Shown: in pieces, positions 47,985-54,307 of the stretch
How positions within the stretch are numbered: the first letter of the stretch is position 1
How the letters are laid out: each line of letters begins with the position of its first letter
Made by a program: the position numbers and the translations under genes
Notes under the pieces: model-generated
What the model saw: only the letters and a program-made list of their open reading frames with translations
Databases searched by the model: none
Told to the model about the DNA's origin: nothing
Source of the DNA: Streptomyces tateyamensis
GTDB taxonomy: Bacteria > Actinomycetota > Actinomycetes > Streptomycetales > Streptomycetaceae
Assembly (NCBI RefSeq): GCF_003205575.1
Contig: NZ_PYBW01000010.1
Span: 62,001 to 126,000 of the forward strand
Direction of reading: 5' to 3'
Length of the DNA stretch: 64,000 bases

Positions 47985-49763
47985 TCAGAAGCCGCGGGTG
48001 CGCTTGGCCGCCCGGCGCGGGCCGGTCAGGTACGGCACCAGCCGCCCGCCCAGCGCCTCGGGCCCGGGCACCTTCATGAACAGCCGGGCCACCTCGCCGC
48101 CCAGGTTCACCCCGATCGCCAGCGCCATCGCGATCGCCGCCGCCCGGCTGACCGAGACCAGCCCGGCCGAGGGGTGGCCCTGGGCGAACGAGAGCATCCC
48201 CAGGTACAGCGCCGAACCGGGCATCAGCGGCCCGAGCGCGGCGGTCACGTACGGCAGCGCCGAGGCGTACCGGTAACGCGCCATCAGCTGGCCGAACAGA
48301 CCCACCACCCCGGCCGCTATCCCGGTGGCCACGATCGCCGAGATCTTCGCGTTGTAGGCCAGCACGCCGAAGACCGCCCAGCCGATCCCGCTGTTCAGGG
48401 TCACCATCGCCAGGGTGCGCCGGCTGGTCTGCAGCAGCATCGCGAAGGCCAGCGTGAGCAGCATCGCCGCGACCAGCTGGACCGGCGGGTTGCGGGTGCT
48501 GATCAGCGACTCGTCCGGTTTCAGCTGGGCGTCGAAGTTGACCCCGAGGTAGAGGATCAGCATCACCCCGATGACGATGCCCGCCACCAGGTAGACCACC
48601 TCCAGCAGGCGGGCGGCGGCGGTGATGTAGAAGCCGGTCAGGCCGTCCTGCACCGCGGCCACCAGGGCCCGCCCGGGCAGCAGCGCGAACAGCCCGCCGG
48701 TGACCACCACCGAGCCGCGCAGGCCCAGGTGGTTGAAGGAGAGCAGGATGCCGGAGGTGGCGGCCGGCATCGCGGCCACCACGAACTGGTAGAACTCCGG
48801 CAGCCCGCGCTTGGCCACGGCGGAGGCCAGCCGGTCCCCGATCACGGCCGCCACCAGCGCGTTGACGAAGACCAGCCAGGCCTTGCCGTCGACCCGCCCG
48901 CCGACCAGGAAGGTGGCCGCGCCGGCCAGCAGCCCGGCGGTCAGCGCCAGCAGCCAGGCCGGGTACGGGTGCCGGTTGCGCCGGATCACCGCGAGCCGGC
49001 GGTAGGCGTCGTTGATCGACACCTGCGCCCCGGTGATGTCCGCGACCAGCCGGTAGACCGCGGCCAGCCGGGTGTAGTCCGAGGTTCGTCGGCGCACCAC
49101 CCGGGCGGCGGTGACGGGGGCCTCCACCAGCGAGGGCTGGTAGGAGATCGAGATCAGGGTGAAGGTCACCTGCGGCTCGCAGCGGTCCAGCGCGTAGGCG
49201 TGGGCGACGCCGAGCATCGCGGCCTCCACGTCCTCGGCGCTCTCGCCACTGGCCAGCAGCAGCTCGCCGATCCGCAGCGTCAGGTCGAGCACCCGGGGGA
49301 CGCCGCGGGCGCCGGCCTCGGACTTGGGCTCGTGCGGGGTCCGCTCAGGGACCGGGCGCTCGGACATGGGGGTGCGCAGCAGGGTGCGCATCCGGTCCGG
49401 CCAGGGCGCCACCCCCACCGTGCCGGGCGACAGCAGCGCCTGCGCACCGGTGGGCGGGTTGTAGCCGACGGCCCGCCAGACCTCCGGGGTCAGGGTGTCC
49501 TCGGAACCGCCGCCCAGCTCGGCGAAGACGGCGAACTCCTCGGTGTGCTCCGGGTCCGGATCGGCGCCCGGGATCGGGAACTCGCCCCGGTCCTGGTCCA
49601 GCCCGGCGGCGGCCGCCGGCAGCACCGATCCGGCCGGCGCGACCGGCCCCGGGCCCAGCAGGCCCTCGGTCGGCCGCGCGGCGGCGGGGGAAACCGGGAC
49701 GGCACCACGCCCCACCTCCGGTTGCCGCTTCCTGCCGCCGCCCGCTCGGCCCCGCTTAGGCAC
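47985..49763 (-). CDS. ThrE-family threonine/serine exporter-like protein
   Basis: 592 residues from GTG 49763 (GAGGA upstream; GTG 49769 also possible). After a 150-residue disordered N terminus comes the DUF1212/ThrE N-terminal domain (LDLTLRIGELLLASGESAEDVEAAML), split as LRIGELLLASGESAEDVE, then ten membrane helices in the ThrE and ThrE_2 halves. Family members export threonine and serine. It is upstream of the membrane protein at 47002. Confidence 0.87.
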   Translation of the reverse strand: MPKRGRAGGGRKRQPEVGRGAVPVSPAAARPTEGLLGPGPVAPAGSVLPAAAAGLDQDRGEFPIPGADPDPEHTEEFAVFAELGGGSEDTLTPEVWRAVGYNPPTGAQALLSPGTVGVAPWPDRMRTLLRTPMSERPVPERTPHEPKSEAGARGVPRVLDLTLRIGELLLASGESAEDVEAAMLGVAHAYALDRCEPQVTFTLISISYQPSLVEAPVTAARVVRRRTSDYTRLAAVYRLVADITGAQVSINDAYRRLAVIRRNRHPYPAWLLALTAGLLAGAATFLVGGRVDGKAWLVFVNALVAAVIGDRLASAVAKRGLPEFYQFVVAAMPAATSGILLSFNHLGLRGSVVVTGGLFALLPGRALVAAVQDGLTGFYITAAARLLEVVYLVAGIVIGVMLILYLGVNFDAQLKPDESLISTRNPPVQLVAAMLLTLAFAMLLQTSRRTLAMVTLNSGIGWAVFGVLAYNAKISAIVATGIAAGVVGLFGQLMARYRYASALPYVTAALGPLMPGSALYLGMLSFAQGHPSAGLVSVSRAAAIAMALAIGVNLGGEVARLFMKVPGPEALGGRLVPYLTGPRRAAKRTRGF

Positions 49764-49790
49764 TGCCACTCCTCGTCCGCTCCGCCATCA

Positions 49791-49819
49791 GGCATGGTGA
49801 TCTTCGTGTCCACCATGCC
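49791..49819. promoter_or_regulatory. inverted repeat upstream of the ThrE-like gene
   Basis: GGCATGGTG and CACCATGCC are 9-bp inverted arms with an 11-base spacer, 28 bases upstream of the ThrE-like start. It may be an operator, or the terminator of the TPR gene that ends at 49947. Confidence 0.5.
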
Positions 49820-49946
49820 GGACCGCACCCGGTACCGCATATGTACACAAAGGCCATATGCACCCAAAGGCGCGGTCGAGCCGACGATACGACTTGCGAG
49901 TGTCCGGCGGGCGGCCCCGGTCTGTCCAACGCCCGCCGACGTGCCG

Positions 49947-52415
49947 TCAGAGGCCGTACCGTTCGATGACCTCCTCGTGCCGGGCGGTCTGCGCACCGGC
50001 CGCCTTGGCCAGCTCCAGCCAGGCCAGCGGGTGCGTCCAGCCCGCCGTCAACTCGGCCACCAGGGCGTCCGCCTGGGCGGCCGAGGCGGTCGGCGGCACG
50101 CCGAGGGCGGCGTAGATGCCGGGCAGGCCCTCGCCCTCCTCGGGCCCGGTCGGGTCCAGGATCCGGTACTGCTGACCGCTGTACGCCCAGATCCCGTAGC
50201 CGTGCCCGCCCAGCGTGTCGCGCAGCTGGTCCCAGCGCTGCGGGCCCGGCCAGGCGCCGTCCAGGAAGTAGGTGGTGTACCCGGCCGGGTCGAGCAGCGT
50301 CAGCAGCTCGAAGGCGGGCCGCCAGCGCTGTTTCTCCGCCTCCGGGGCGCCCTCGGCCGGGGCCGGCTCCAGCAGCGCCGGGCTGAAGACCACCAGGTCG
50401 CGGTGGTTGAGCGGGACGTCCTCGCCGAGCACCGGCAGGATCCGCGCGGTGGCCGGCCCGGTGCGCAGCGCCGGCACGTCGCTCTGCCCGCCGTCGGACC
50501 GGCGGGCCCGGACGGTGATGTACTGCCACTCCTCGTCCACCGGGCCGTCCGGCCGGTCGAACTCGATGCCCAGCCGGGCGCCGGTGGACCGCACCACCGC
50601 CCAGTCCCGGTTGGCGCTGGCCACCGTGATCAGGTGCCACAGGTCCGGGACCTGCACGGTGCGGTACTGCTCCTCGGGCCCGGCCTGCTCGGGCGCCGGC
50701 GCGTGCTCCAGCAGCTCCTGGTAGAGCCGCTGGGCGGTCGGGTAGTCGCCCAGCTCGGTGGCCGCGGCGGCGGCCAGCCGGCGCGGGTTGATCCGGTCCG
50801 GGTCGAGCACCAGCAGTGCCTCGACCTGCTCGACGGCCTCGGCCCAGCGGCTCTCGGCCAGCGCCCAGCGGGCCCGGATCCAGTGCGCGCCCGCCGGGTC
50901 GGCCGGGGCCACCCGCTCGGCCAGCCGGGCCAGCTGCTCGCCGTCCCGGGCCTCGACCAGCACCGAGCAGAGCATGCCGACCAGGCCCTGGTGGCCCGGG
51001 TCCTGCTCCAGCCGTCCCCAGAGCAGGGCGGCGGCGGCCTGCTCGTGCCCGAGCGAGGCGAACAGGCCGGCCAGCGCGAGCAGCAGGTCGGTCGCGCCGG
51101 GCGCCGGGCCGGCTCCGGCAGCGGGGCCGGCCGCCCCCTCGACGGGGGCCGACTCGGCGGCCTCTCCCTCCGCGGCGGCCGACTCGGCGGCCTCCCCCTC
51201 CGCGGCGGCCAGCTCGTGCCAGCCGGCCGCGAGCAGCTCCAGCTCGGCCTCCGGGTCGGCCTGCTCCGGCGGCCGTGCGCCCAGGTGGGCCAGCAGTTCG
51301 GCGGCCGGGACCGGCAGCCGGGGCACCGGCAGCGCCCGGGCGGCGGCGGCCAGCTCGGCCACCTGGCCGGCCACCGCCTCGGTGCGGCGCAGCAGCGCCA
51401 GCTTGCGCTCGGCGGTGGCCAGCAGCGCCAGCGCCACCTCCCGGGCACCGCGCGCCACCGCCAGCCGACCGGCCGTCAGCGCCAGGTCCAGGCAGGGCCG
51501 GTGCGAGCCGGCCGCGTCCAGGTAGGAGACCCAGTGCGCCAGCCGTACGCCCAGCCGGGCGTCGTTCGGGTACCGGCCGGCGGCCACCAGCAGCGCCACC
51601 GCCTCGGTCCAGCGGTGCCGCACGTCCGGGAACTCGTCCGCCTCGGCGCCCTCGGGCAGCTGCTCCAGCGCCTCGTCGTAGCGCCCCAGGGCCGCCAGCA
51701 GCCGGGCCCGGATCACCCCGCCTTTGCGCCGGTCGTCCTCGTCCAGCTGGTGCCCGGCCTTGGTGTACGCCTGCTCGGCGGCGGCCAGCGCCGCCAGCGC
51801 CTCCTCCAGCCGGCCCAGCCGGTAGAGCGCCGAGCAGCGGGCGTGGCCGAAGGAGAGCGAGACGCTCTCCCCGGCCGCCTGGATCCGGGTCTTGGCCCGG
51901 TCCAGGTGGGCCAGCGCCTCGCCGGGGCGCCCGTCGTCCTCCAGCGTGTCGGCGTACTCCCGGGACAGGCAGTCGAAGCAGGCCCGGGACGGCTCGACCC
52001 GCTCCAGCGTCTCCTCCAGCACCGCGAGCCGCTCCGGCACGTAGCCGGGGCCGTCGATGTTGGCGTGGCAGATGGTGAAGTCCTGCACCGCGCAGACCGA
52101 CTGCGGGCAGCCGGCGGTCTCCTCGCGGTGCGCGAACTCCAGCAGCGAGACCGCCTCGGTCATCGCCTGCTCGCCCTGGTGACGCTTGTTCAGCAGGTTC
52201 TGCAGGCGCCAGTGCCGCAGGAACACCTCCACCCAGGGCAGGCCGAGCGCCCGGGCCGAGGCCACCGCCTCCGGGTAGAGCGCGTCCAACTGCTCGTTGC
52301 GCCCGTCCACCGCGTGCCCGGCGATCTCCACCAGGGCGGTGGCCAGCCGGTGCTGACCGGCCGCCACCAGCTGGCCGTGGGTGTCGTAGACCCAGCCCCA
52401 GACGTCCGTGCTCAT
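49947..52415 (-). CDS. TPR-repeat protein coupled to the Hsp90-family gene
   Basis: 822 residues. The N-terminal half holds helical TPR-like repeats (for example EALAHLDRAKTRIQ, LGRLEEALAALAAAEQAY, LAALGRYDEALEQL); the middle repeats AAEGEAAES; and residues about 620-820 form a distinct alpha/beta domain (DEEWQYITVRARRSD, GYGIWAYSGQQYRI). Its ATG overlaps the Hsp90-like stop by four bases, so both are made together. TPR proteins are Hsp90 co-chaperones in eukaryotes; that parallel is suggestive, not proven. Confidence 0.8.
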   Translation of the reverse strand: MSTDVWGWVYDTHGQLVAAGQHRLATALVEIAGHAVDGRNEQLDALYPEAVASARALGLPWVEVFLRHWRLQNLLNKRHQGEQAMTEAVSLLEFAHREETAGCPQSVCAVQDFTICHANIDGPGYVPERLAVLEETLERVEPSRACFDCLSREYADTLEDDGRPGEALAHLDRAKTRIQAAGESVSLSFGHARCSALYRLGRLEEALAALAAAEQAYTKAGHQLDEDDRRKGGVIRARLLAALGRYDEALEQLPEGAEADEFPDVRHRWTEAVALLVAAGRYPNDARLGVRLAHWVSYLDAAGSHRPCLDLALTAGRLAVARGAREVALALLATAERKLALLRRTEAVAGQVAELAAAARALPVPRLPVPAAELLAHLGARPPEQADPEAELELLAAGWHELAAAEGEAAESAAAEGEAAESAPVEGAAGPAAGAGPAPGATDLLLALAGLFASLGHEQAAAALLWGRLEQDPGHQGLVGMLCSVLVEARDGEQLARLAERVAPADPAGAHWIRARWALAESRWAEAVEQVEALLVLDPDRINPRRLAAAAATELGDYPTAQRLYQELLEHAPAPEQAGPEEQYRTVQVPDLWHLITVASANRDWAVVRSTGARLGIEFDRPDGPVDEEWQYITVRARRSDGGQSDVPALRTGPATARILPVLGEDVPLNHRDLVVFSPALLEPAPAEGAPEAEKQRWRPAFELLTLLDPAGYTTYFLDGAWPGPQRWDQLRDTLGGHGYGIWAYSGQQYRILDPTGPEEGEGLPGIYAALGVPPTASAAQADALVAELTAGWTHPLAWLELAKAAGAQTARHEEVIERYGL

Positions 52416-54307
52416 CCGCGCTCCTCCCCGGCCCCGTCCTGGTCGAACAGCATGCCCAGCTCCACCGACAGCGGCCCGGCCGGTGCGGTCAGCGCCGCCA
52501 CCGCGGTGCCCACCCCGGCCAGCGCGGCGGTCAGGTCCCCGGTCCCCTGGTCGGTCCCGGCCGCCGCCATGATCACCTTCAGCGAGCGGAGCAGCCCGGC
52601 GGCGGTGGCCGCGCCGGTGTGCCCGGCCCGGTAGGCGCCGAGCAGGTCCCGCACGGCCGGCGAGGCGGTGTTCAGGTACAGCCGCGCCTTGACGCTGCCG
52701 TCGGTGCGCGCGGTGAAGGCGCGGGCCAGCCGCAGCGCGGCCGACGGGATCCGGGCGTCCGCCTGGTCGTCCTCGATCCGGGCCTTGAGCTCGGCCTCCC
52801 GGTCCGGGACCAGCACCAGCGGCAGCCCGGGCGGGTCGAACCTGGCCGGCACCAGCTGCTCGCCCGGCTCGGCCAGCGCGGCGGCCAGCCAGCCGACCTC
52901 CTCGGCAGGCAGCGGCTGCTCCGGCTCGCGGAACAGCTCGCGGTTGCCGCTCTCGCTGCCCAGCTCGACGATCCGGCAGCCGCGCAGCTGGGCGTAGCGG
53001 CGCAGGAACGGCAGCACCGCGTAGCGGTCGCCGCGGGCGATCGGCACCCGCATCGCGCGGTAGAGCATCTCCTCGAAGCCGCCGCCGGAGCCGAGCGCGA
53101 CGTGCACCGCGCCGTCCCCGGCCGCGCGCAGCGCACCCGCCGTCAGTTCGCCCTGGGAGCTGGGCACCGGGACGTCGTCGGCGAGCAGGGTGAACAGCCG
53201 CTCGTCGCAGAGCGCGGCGCCCAGCAGGTCCTGGCCGTGCCGGGTCAGGATCCGGCGCCAGGCGGCCGGGTGCAGCCGGGCGGTCTCGTACAGGCCGTCC
53301 ACCACGGCGTCGGCCAGCGCCCGCTGCAGCGCCCGGTAGTGCTCGTCGCGCTGCAGGTCCTCGCGGCTGGCGGTGGGGGTGAGCCGGTTGGACTCGATCA
53401 CCCCGCCGACGAAGCCGGCCCAGCTGGGCAGCAGATCGCGGGCGTCCTCGCTGAGCAGCATGCCGCGCAGGTAGACCGACAGGTCCCGGTTGTCGGAGCT
53501 GCCGTAGCTGCCGCCGTCCTGCACCCAGAGCAGGCCGACCGCGTCGGTGGCCCCCTCGGCGGGCTCGAACGGGAAGGCCGTCAGCGGTTCGAAGCGGCGC
53601 CCGAAGGTGGCGGCGAACTCCATCCGGGCGGCGTGCCCGCGGGCCGGGCCGGGCTCCTCGCGCCAGGGCACCGGGATGTCGTTGACCGGGCGCGCGTCCT
53701 CGCCGACGAAGACCGGGATCGGCAGCAGCACGCAGTACCGGGCCAGCACCTCGCGCAGCGCGCCCTCGTCGGCCAGGTGCGCGTGCTCGGCCTTGAGCGC
53801 CAGCTCGACCACGGTGCCCGGCTCGGGGCGCGGCGCCACCGGCTCGACGGTGTACTGCTCGCCGCCGCGGCTGCGGTAGCGGTGGCCCAGGCCCGGCTCG
53901 CGGTGCGAGGTGGTGGTGACGGTGACCTGGTCGGCCACCGAGAAGGCGGACAGGAAGCCGAGGCCGAAGGCGCCGATCAGCTCCTCGTTGCCGGTCAGGT
54001 CGCGCAGCAGCCGGGTGTAGCCGGTGCCCACGGTGGCCAGGTAGGCGTGGATCTCGGGCTCGGTCAGGCCGGCCCCGGTGTCCTCGATCGCCACCGTCCG
54101 GGCCGCCTGGTCGGCGCGCACGGTGATCCGGGGACGCGCGGTGGTGTGCGGATCCTCCAGCCGGCGCCGGGTGTGCGAGTCATGGGCGTTCTGCACGAGC
54201 TCGCGCAGCGCGACCAGCGGGGTGGAATAGAGGTGGGTGGCGAGGACGCTGACCAGACCGCCCAGGTCGACCTCGGTACTGCGCAGGTTCTCCTGACCTT
54301 CAGACAT
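52412..54307 (-). CDS. Hsp90/HtpG-family molecular chaperone
   Basis: 631 residues. The GHKL ATPase site is complete: RELVQNAHDS (E36, N40), IEDTGAG (76-80) and GAFGLGFLSAF (112-122). The middle domain keeps GVIESNRLTPTASREDLQ, containing the catalytic-loop arginine. The C-terminal about 200 residues are divergent from HtpG. Start ATG 54307; the frame open to 54415 has no ribosome site. It is transcribed ahead of the TPR gene. It is best called an Hsp90 paralogue rather than standard HtpG. Confidence 0.88.
   Translation of the reverse strand: MSEGQENLRSTEVDLGGLVSVLATHLYSTPLVALRELVQNAHDSHTRRRLEDPHTTARPRITVRADQAARTVAIEDTGAGLTEPEIHAYLATVGTGYTRLLRDLTGNEELIGAFGLGFLSAFSVADQVTVTTTSHREPGLGHRYRSRGGEQYTVEPVAPRPEPGTVVELALKAEHAHLADEGALREVLARYCVLLPIPVFVGEDARPVNDIPVPWREEPGPARGHAARMEFAATFGRRFEPLTAFPFEPAEGATDAVGLLWVQDGGSYGSSDNRDLSVYLRGMLLSEDARDLLPSWAGFVGGVIESNRLTPTASREDLQRDEHYRALQRALADAVVDGLYETARLHPAAWRRILTRHGQDLLGAALCDERLFTLLADDVPVPSSQGELTAGALRAAGDGAVHVALGSGGGFEEMLYRAMRVPIARGDRYAVLPFLRRYAQLRGCRIVELGSESGNRELFREPEQPLPAEEVGWLAAALAEPGEQLVPARFDPPGLPLVLVPDREAELKARIEDDQADARIPSAALRLARAFTARTDGSVKARLYLNTASPAVRDLLGAYRAGHTGAATAAGLLRSLKVIMAAAGTDQGTGDLTAALAGVGTAVAALTAPAGPLSVELGMLFDQDGAGEERG

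Follow-up and report, generated by a model that had tools for sequence, protein, structure and literature searches.

Our results indicate that a side branch of the bacterial Hsp90 family is linked, far more often than chance would allow, to the gene of a large TPR protein. The two genes were found in the 64,000-nucleotide stretch of Streptomyces tateyamensis DNA analysed here (the window), and we consider it fairly probable that their products form a two-protein chaperone machine, with the TPR protein as the dedicated partner of the Hsp90. This reading is favoured by the conservation, adjacency and co-inheritance of the pair, and by the intact catalytic residues and three-domain architecture of the Hsp90.

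Both frames lie on the minus strand and start with ATG, the Hsp90 frame (P0001, 631 aa) running from 54307 to 52412 and the TPR frame (P0002, 822 aa) from 52415 to 49947. As the first-pass annotation had noticed, the ATG of the TPR gene overlaps the stop of the Hsp90 gene; the two have four bases in common (ATGA, 52412-52415, minus strand), an arrangement that would couple their translation. An open frame of 1486 aa runs antisense across the TPR gene (48174-52634, plus strand) and is most likely a by-product of the very high GC.

P0001 scores above the Pfam cut-offs for HATPase_c_3 and HSP90, and its residues 4-344 align to E. coli HtpG (phmmer, E 5e-30). The N-terminal ATPase domain (residues about 13-220; 53648-54271, minus strand) is covered by HATPase_c_3. 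Residue roles (catalytic Glu, Mg-site Asn, DxGxG and GxFGxG motifs, middle-domain Arg) are those established for HtpG and Hsp82. The complete ATPase site and catalytic-loop motif ascribed to this protein at first sight are indeed present: E36, N40, D76, G80, G112, F114, G115 and G117 are invariant in all 83 proteins of the clade to which P0001 belongs, termed type A here. The catalytic-loop residue R315, which lies in the middle domain (residues about 221-480; 52868-53647, minus strand; Pfam HSP90 match 269-343, border taken from the model), is likewise kept in 83/83 type-A proteins, and in 15/15 of the neighbouring type B described below. The AlphaFold model of P0001 (pLDDT 78) holds all three Hsp90 domains (N-terminal, middle and C-terminal), and Foldseek aligns it along its length with TRAP1, GRP94 and HtpG, the match to full-length TRAP1 (7kcl) reaching E 2.3e-28 over 649 columns. 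P0001 is thus a complete Hsp90 and, judging from its residues and modelled fold, probably ATPase-competent. The description of its C terminus as divergent is apt when HtpG is the reference; within its own clade, however, the region is conserved, with 52% identity across phyla for residues 481-610, and it is modelled as a complete C-terminal domain (residues about 481-610; 52478-52867, minus strand).

P0001 falls below the cut-off of the HtpG equivalog NF003555 (185.9 vs 371) and also below that of NF010683 (PRK14083, 'HSP90 family protein'; 271.5 vs 455). In the Hsp90 tree, which carried long-branch warnings, type A, the PRK14083-type proteins (type B) and HtpG each form one clade at 100/100. 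Type A falls apart from the HtpG clade and has type B as its nearest neighbour in this tree, which contained no sequence labelled as HTPG group C (Chen et al. 2006). By these sequence comparisons, type A is a side branch of Hsp90, distinct from HtpG and sister to the NCBIfam family PRK14083.

The TPR protein P0002 scores above the Pfam cut-off for TPR_2. Its AlphaFold model (mean pLDDT 92) shows a TPR superhelix of residues about 5-615, followed by an alpha/beta domain of residues 631-805 (50001-50525, minus strand). The extra alpha/beta domain therefore belongs to the TPR protein and not to the Hsp90. Residues 3-363 resemble MalT domain III, APC5 and Rap/NprR (VIA-align Z about 20-22.5, a range that the common repeat shape also raises), with the top Z of 22.5 to MalT domain III and APC5. 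The alpha/beta region has no Pfam match, and the matches listed by the fold searches with P0002 are TPR and other repeat chains, which assign no fold to this domain. The most conserved part of the protein lies elsewhere. Residues 60-160 (51936-52238, minus strand) are 55% identical between actinobacterial and other members, against 29-38% for the other segments. Within this segment C103, C108, C116, C146 and C149 are invariant in 81/81 partners, a count from which two cut or split copies were excluded and to which the window's copy was added. Their conservation makes the segment a candidate zinc site.

The first-pass annotation had stated beforehand that its idea would be refuted if the two genes did not co-occur in other genomes; the idea survived this test. 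Contigs were scanned for the Hsp90 only, with an alignment of five type-A proteins as the query (window, Streptacidiphilus-type, Kitasatospora, Pseudomonas and Xanthomonas); of the 197 relatives confirmed in this way, the best 80 were retained as loci. In all of these 80 loci the partner HMM finds a same-strand TPR gene as the next gene downstream; the partner is cut by the contig end in L120 and split over two frames in L138. The pair occurs in three phyla and is not limited to actinobacteria, being found in Actinomycetota, in a Chloroflexota MAG and in Gammaproteobacteria; the kept loci include Kitasatospora, Actinorhabdospora, the Chloroflexota MAG, Xanthomonas, Stenotrophomonas, Lysobacter, Budvicia and Escherichia, and the pair is also present in P. 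aeruginosa and Salmonella Infantis. The overlap of the two genes is not universal: across 82 junctions (the 80 loci plus L100 and L101), judged with guessed gene starts, the two genes overlap in 12, lie 0-50 nt apart in 43 and are separated by more than 50 nt in 27.

Two partner-type genes without an adjoining Hsp90 gene were seen, one in Nonomuraea gerenzanensis (L105, 8001-10274) and one in Actinomyces oris (L201, 4001-7036). The Nonomuraea protein sits on a long branch in the tree and, in the alignment, has a cysteine at the first of the five positions but not at the other four. This pattern would fit a need for the cysteines in the work with Hsp90, as a single case read from an alignment.

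Trees were built for 18 Hsp90s, and for the matching TPR proteins together with the solitary Nonomuraea protein. The two trees agree on the well-supported forks, even where these depart from taxonomy: in both, Lysobacter groups with Luteibacter and Dyella (Rhodanobacteraceae), apart from Xanthomonas and Stenotrophomonas, and the P. aeruginosa copy groups with Xanthomonas and Stenotrophomonas. The agreement suggests that the two genes of the pair have travelled together. The genes around the pair are seldom the same. Among the matches listed for 16 loci of 13 genera, neighbours beyond the pair are common only to related genera, bar two weak matches, an ABC-ATPase in Pseudomonas and Actinorhabdospora and a match of 29% identity between Kitasatospora and Lysobacter. 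These observations bear on one alternative, that the two proteins share operon regulation only and never touch. The two solitary partner homologues would suit it, but the two genes stay side by side at different loci in all three phyla, where hardly any further neighbour is common to unrelated genera among the matches listed, and the agreement of the two trees argues in the same direction; we regard operon regulation alone as a most improbable explanation.

The distribution of type A differs sharply between groups. In Kitasatospora, the genus of the window, the Hsp90 is present in 37/39 genomes, the window's own included, and it is found in 3/3 Streptacidiphilus genomes, one copy being in two pieces; the remaining 108 host-family genomes of the 150 drawn have none. 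It is rare among the sampled Pseudomonadota (5/398 genomes, the centre included). Of 5426 complete E. coli genomes, 245 carry the Hsp90 gene, each in one copy and without exception on the chromosome. In E. coli SE15, the one E. coli carrier whose annotation was examined, the pair stands alone between fdhD and yiiG (L186, 17968-22111), and K-12 MG1655 (L191) has a gap of 152 nt between the same two genes, and no pair. In E. coli, the interval between fdhD and yiiG is a site at which the pair is either present or absent. The Salmonella Infantis and E. coli copies have a common locus and are 92% (Hsp90) and 76% (TPR protein) identical.

Patchiness of this kind in E. coli and Pseudomonadota would be expected of a conflict system, either anti-phage or triggered by stress, in which a cue detected by the GHKL ATPase is passed on by the TPR protein. 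A distant relative points the same way. On a plasmid of Pseudanabaena sp. ABRG5-3 (L104, 7929-12792), an Hsp90-like protein of 877 aa is TIR-like in its C-terminal part (a match below cut-off to Pfam CAP12-PCTIR_TIR at E 0.001). A TPR gene lies two genes on, and nearby are a TIR gene and genes for a DNA methylase and a helicase, so that the protein resembles a relative of the defence type. The type-A pair itself, however, is nearly core in Kitasatospora and has housekeeping genes around it in E. coli SE15 and P. aeruginosa, and no relative was confirmed in IMG/VR. PADLOC returned no match for the TPR protein and, for the Hsp90, only weak ATPase-superfamily matches (ATPase-domain matches to TmtA and REase_II, E 1e-6 at best). 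A conflict function of the pair appears quite improbable on this evidence. Carriage by mobile elements or phage was also considered and rejected, given the negative IMG/VR result and the chromosomal-looking genes around the full-length matches from P. aeruginosa, Xanthomonas vasicola and Salmonella Infantis that are filed in collections of plasmids and phages. Four records filed as plasmids or phage (NZ_CP034650, NZ_CP034652, NZ_CP131792 and AFYI01000005) carry genes that are usually chromosomal (cyo, radA, flg and fdh), and their filing seems to be wrong or partial.

Regulation by heat was another candidate that did not hold. No HAIR (HspR) or CIRCE (HrcA) operator was found in the window with up to 3 mismatches to consensus sequences taken from general knowledge, and no sigma-70-like site was found near the pair. 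We take PA1068/PA1069 to be the P. aeruginosa pair, with PA1069 as the partner, from the order of the genes with liv and flg genes. The heat table of one study has PA1069 falling from 7.5 to 1.9 (log2 -1.98) and htpG rising (+2.8) (PMC4957987). In the available parts of the literature, PA1069 appears in omics tables only, and in the corresponding part of PMC9995270 PA1068 is the name of a strain.

The sister clade is organised in a similar manner. The window's genome has two further Hsp90 genes, a canonical HtpG gene on contig C370 and a type-B gene on contig C25, the latter coupled to a gene of 966 aa. In the host family, a same-strand gene follows the type-B Hsp90 at -4 to +2 nt in 15/15 loci, the partner being split in two frames in L047. 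Three of these partners were scanned and gave weak or clear TPR matches; the type-A partner of L052, scanned beside them, gave no TPR match at E 0.01. In other actinomycete families a TPR-type gene comes next in 3/3 loci, at +1 nt in L085, at about +25 nt in L086 and with an ATGA overlap in L087, where the TPR protein is a different and shorter one. The type-B partner of Paenibacillus has 353 aa, also begins in an ATGA overlap, and corresponds to the type-B partners in their N-terminal domain (HMM, E 2e-50), with no TPR match in Pfam. In Listeria, two tandem copies of a partner of roughly 320 aa, with a DCxACE motif, come after the Hsp90 gene. In Listeria monocytogenes (L200, 4980-8765), the 'HSP90 family protein' gene adjoins the ferritin gene fri.

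Type-B partners have an invariant DCxxC and Cys of their own. Homology between the type-A and type-B partners was tried and set aside: hhalign gave a probability of 90% but on generic TPR only, and of 4-12% over the Cys region. Where both modules are present, in G000 and G147, each Hsp90 stands with its own type of partner. In contrast, no partner homologue adjoins canonical htpG in any of six loci (L036, L088, L096, L097, L099 and L188, of which L099 ends soon after the gene). That clade B is also coupled to TPR-type or helical-repeat partners, and canonical htpG is so in 0/6 loci, supports the reading of the type-A pair as a chaperone machine.

In such a machine, the ATP-driven closing of the Hsp90 dimer would act on a client brought in by the TPR superhelix or by the alpha/beta domain. 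The partner would dock on the Hsp90 by means of its Cys-rich segment, the putative zinc site, in place of an MEEVD tail. A fixed ratio of Hsp90 to TPR protein would follow from coupled translation, and the canonical HtpG of the window's genome would stay the general stress chaperone. We infer the contact between the two proteins, the clients and the role of the cysteines.

The strongest rival to this machine is the proposal that the TPR protein is itself the sole client: the Hsp90 would fold a large TPR scaffold, or hold it inactive, and the alpha/beta domain would do the real work as the effector. A dedicated client would account for the fixed one-to-one linkage and for the difference in evolutionary rate; between the window and Pseudomonas, the Hsp90 is about 60% identical and the TPR partner 37%, so that the Hsp90 evolves much more slowly. 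It would also account for an alpha/beta domain that is conserved at 37-38% identity across phyla. Conservation in the TPR protein, however, is strongest in the Cys-rich segment, above that of the alpha/beta domain. Moreover, the type-B partners differ in their C-termini, and those of Bacillota are reduced to the short N-terminal domain, as would suit a partner domain. The sole-client proposal is, in our view, rather unlikely.

Several points count against the two-protein machine. TPR proteins often have roles other than that of chaperone partner. In Nonomuraea and Actinomyces oris, a partner homologue lacks an adjoining Hsp90, the slower evolution of the Hsp90 would fit a protein that acts also on others, homology between the partners of types A and B could not be established by sequence, and the gene overlap is not universal. 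A broader proposal, which we hold only tentatively, is that bacterial Hsp90s of types A and B are as a rule two-component, each with its own TPR-type partner that docks by a conserved cysteine (zinc) module in place of an MEEVD tail. If this is true, bacteria would possess a form of the Hsp90-TPR principle whose origin is separate from, or older than, the eukaryotic one, and such two-component machines would be present in the well-studied P. aeruginosa, E. coli, Salmonella, Listeria and Streptomyces. A conserved pair in culturable, well-studied bacteria makes the possible existence of dedicated bacterial Hsp90 partners, the client of this branch and a possible repeated origin of TPR-assisted Hsp90 accessible to experiment.

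No paper describing the pair was found by title or start of abstract in the literature searched. Long-branching second copies of Hsp90 have been reported in S. coelicolor, some gammaproteobacteria and Firmicutes (Chen et al. 2006, PMC1525184; Press et al. 2013, PMC3708813). Chen et al. divided HTPG into groups A, B and C and described S. coelicolor as having two copies (PMC1525184). Press et al. left hsp90B and hsp90C out of their analysis, and noted that obligate co-chaperones of Hsp90 had not been identified in bacteria (PMC3708813). In the available parts of these two studies, a partner gene is not mentioned for HTPG group C or hsp90C.

Of the closest known systems, PRK14083 (NF010683) is the sister clade, with the same domain layout by family match and with coupling to a large TPR-type gene; P0001 nevertheless belongs to a 100/100 clade of its own, and the partners are not alike in length or in the spacing of their cysteines. 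HtpG (NF003555) has the same fold and the same ATPase and catalytic-loop residues as P0001, but the HtpG gene of the window's genome has no partner gene adjoining. Eukaryotic Hsp90 works with TPR co-chaperones such as Hop, FKBP51/52 and PP5, and the first-pass annotation had proposed that the bacterial pair is analogous to these. The analogy holds as far as an Hsp90 is consistently combined with a TPR-fold partner (80/80 of the best 80 of 197 relatives), but a close analogy to the eukaryotic mode of TPR docking is not supported. EEVD is absent from the last 30 residues of all 83 type-A and all 15 type-B Hsp90s, and the eukaryotic docking mode is therefore excluded in its usual form. The partner differs as well, P0002 being a long superhelix of the shape seen in MalT, APC5 and Rap, with a Cys-rich segment of its own, and not a short clamp.
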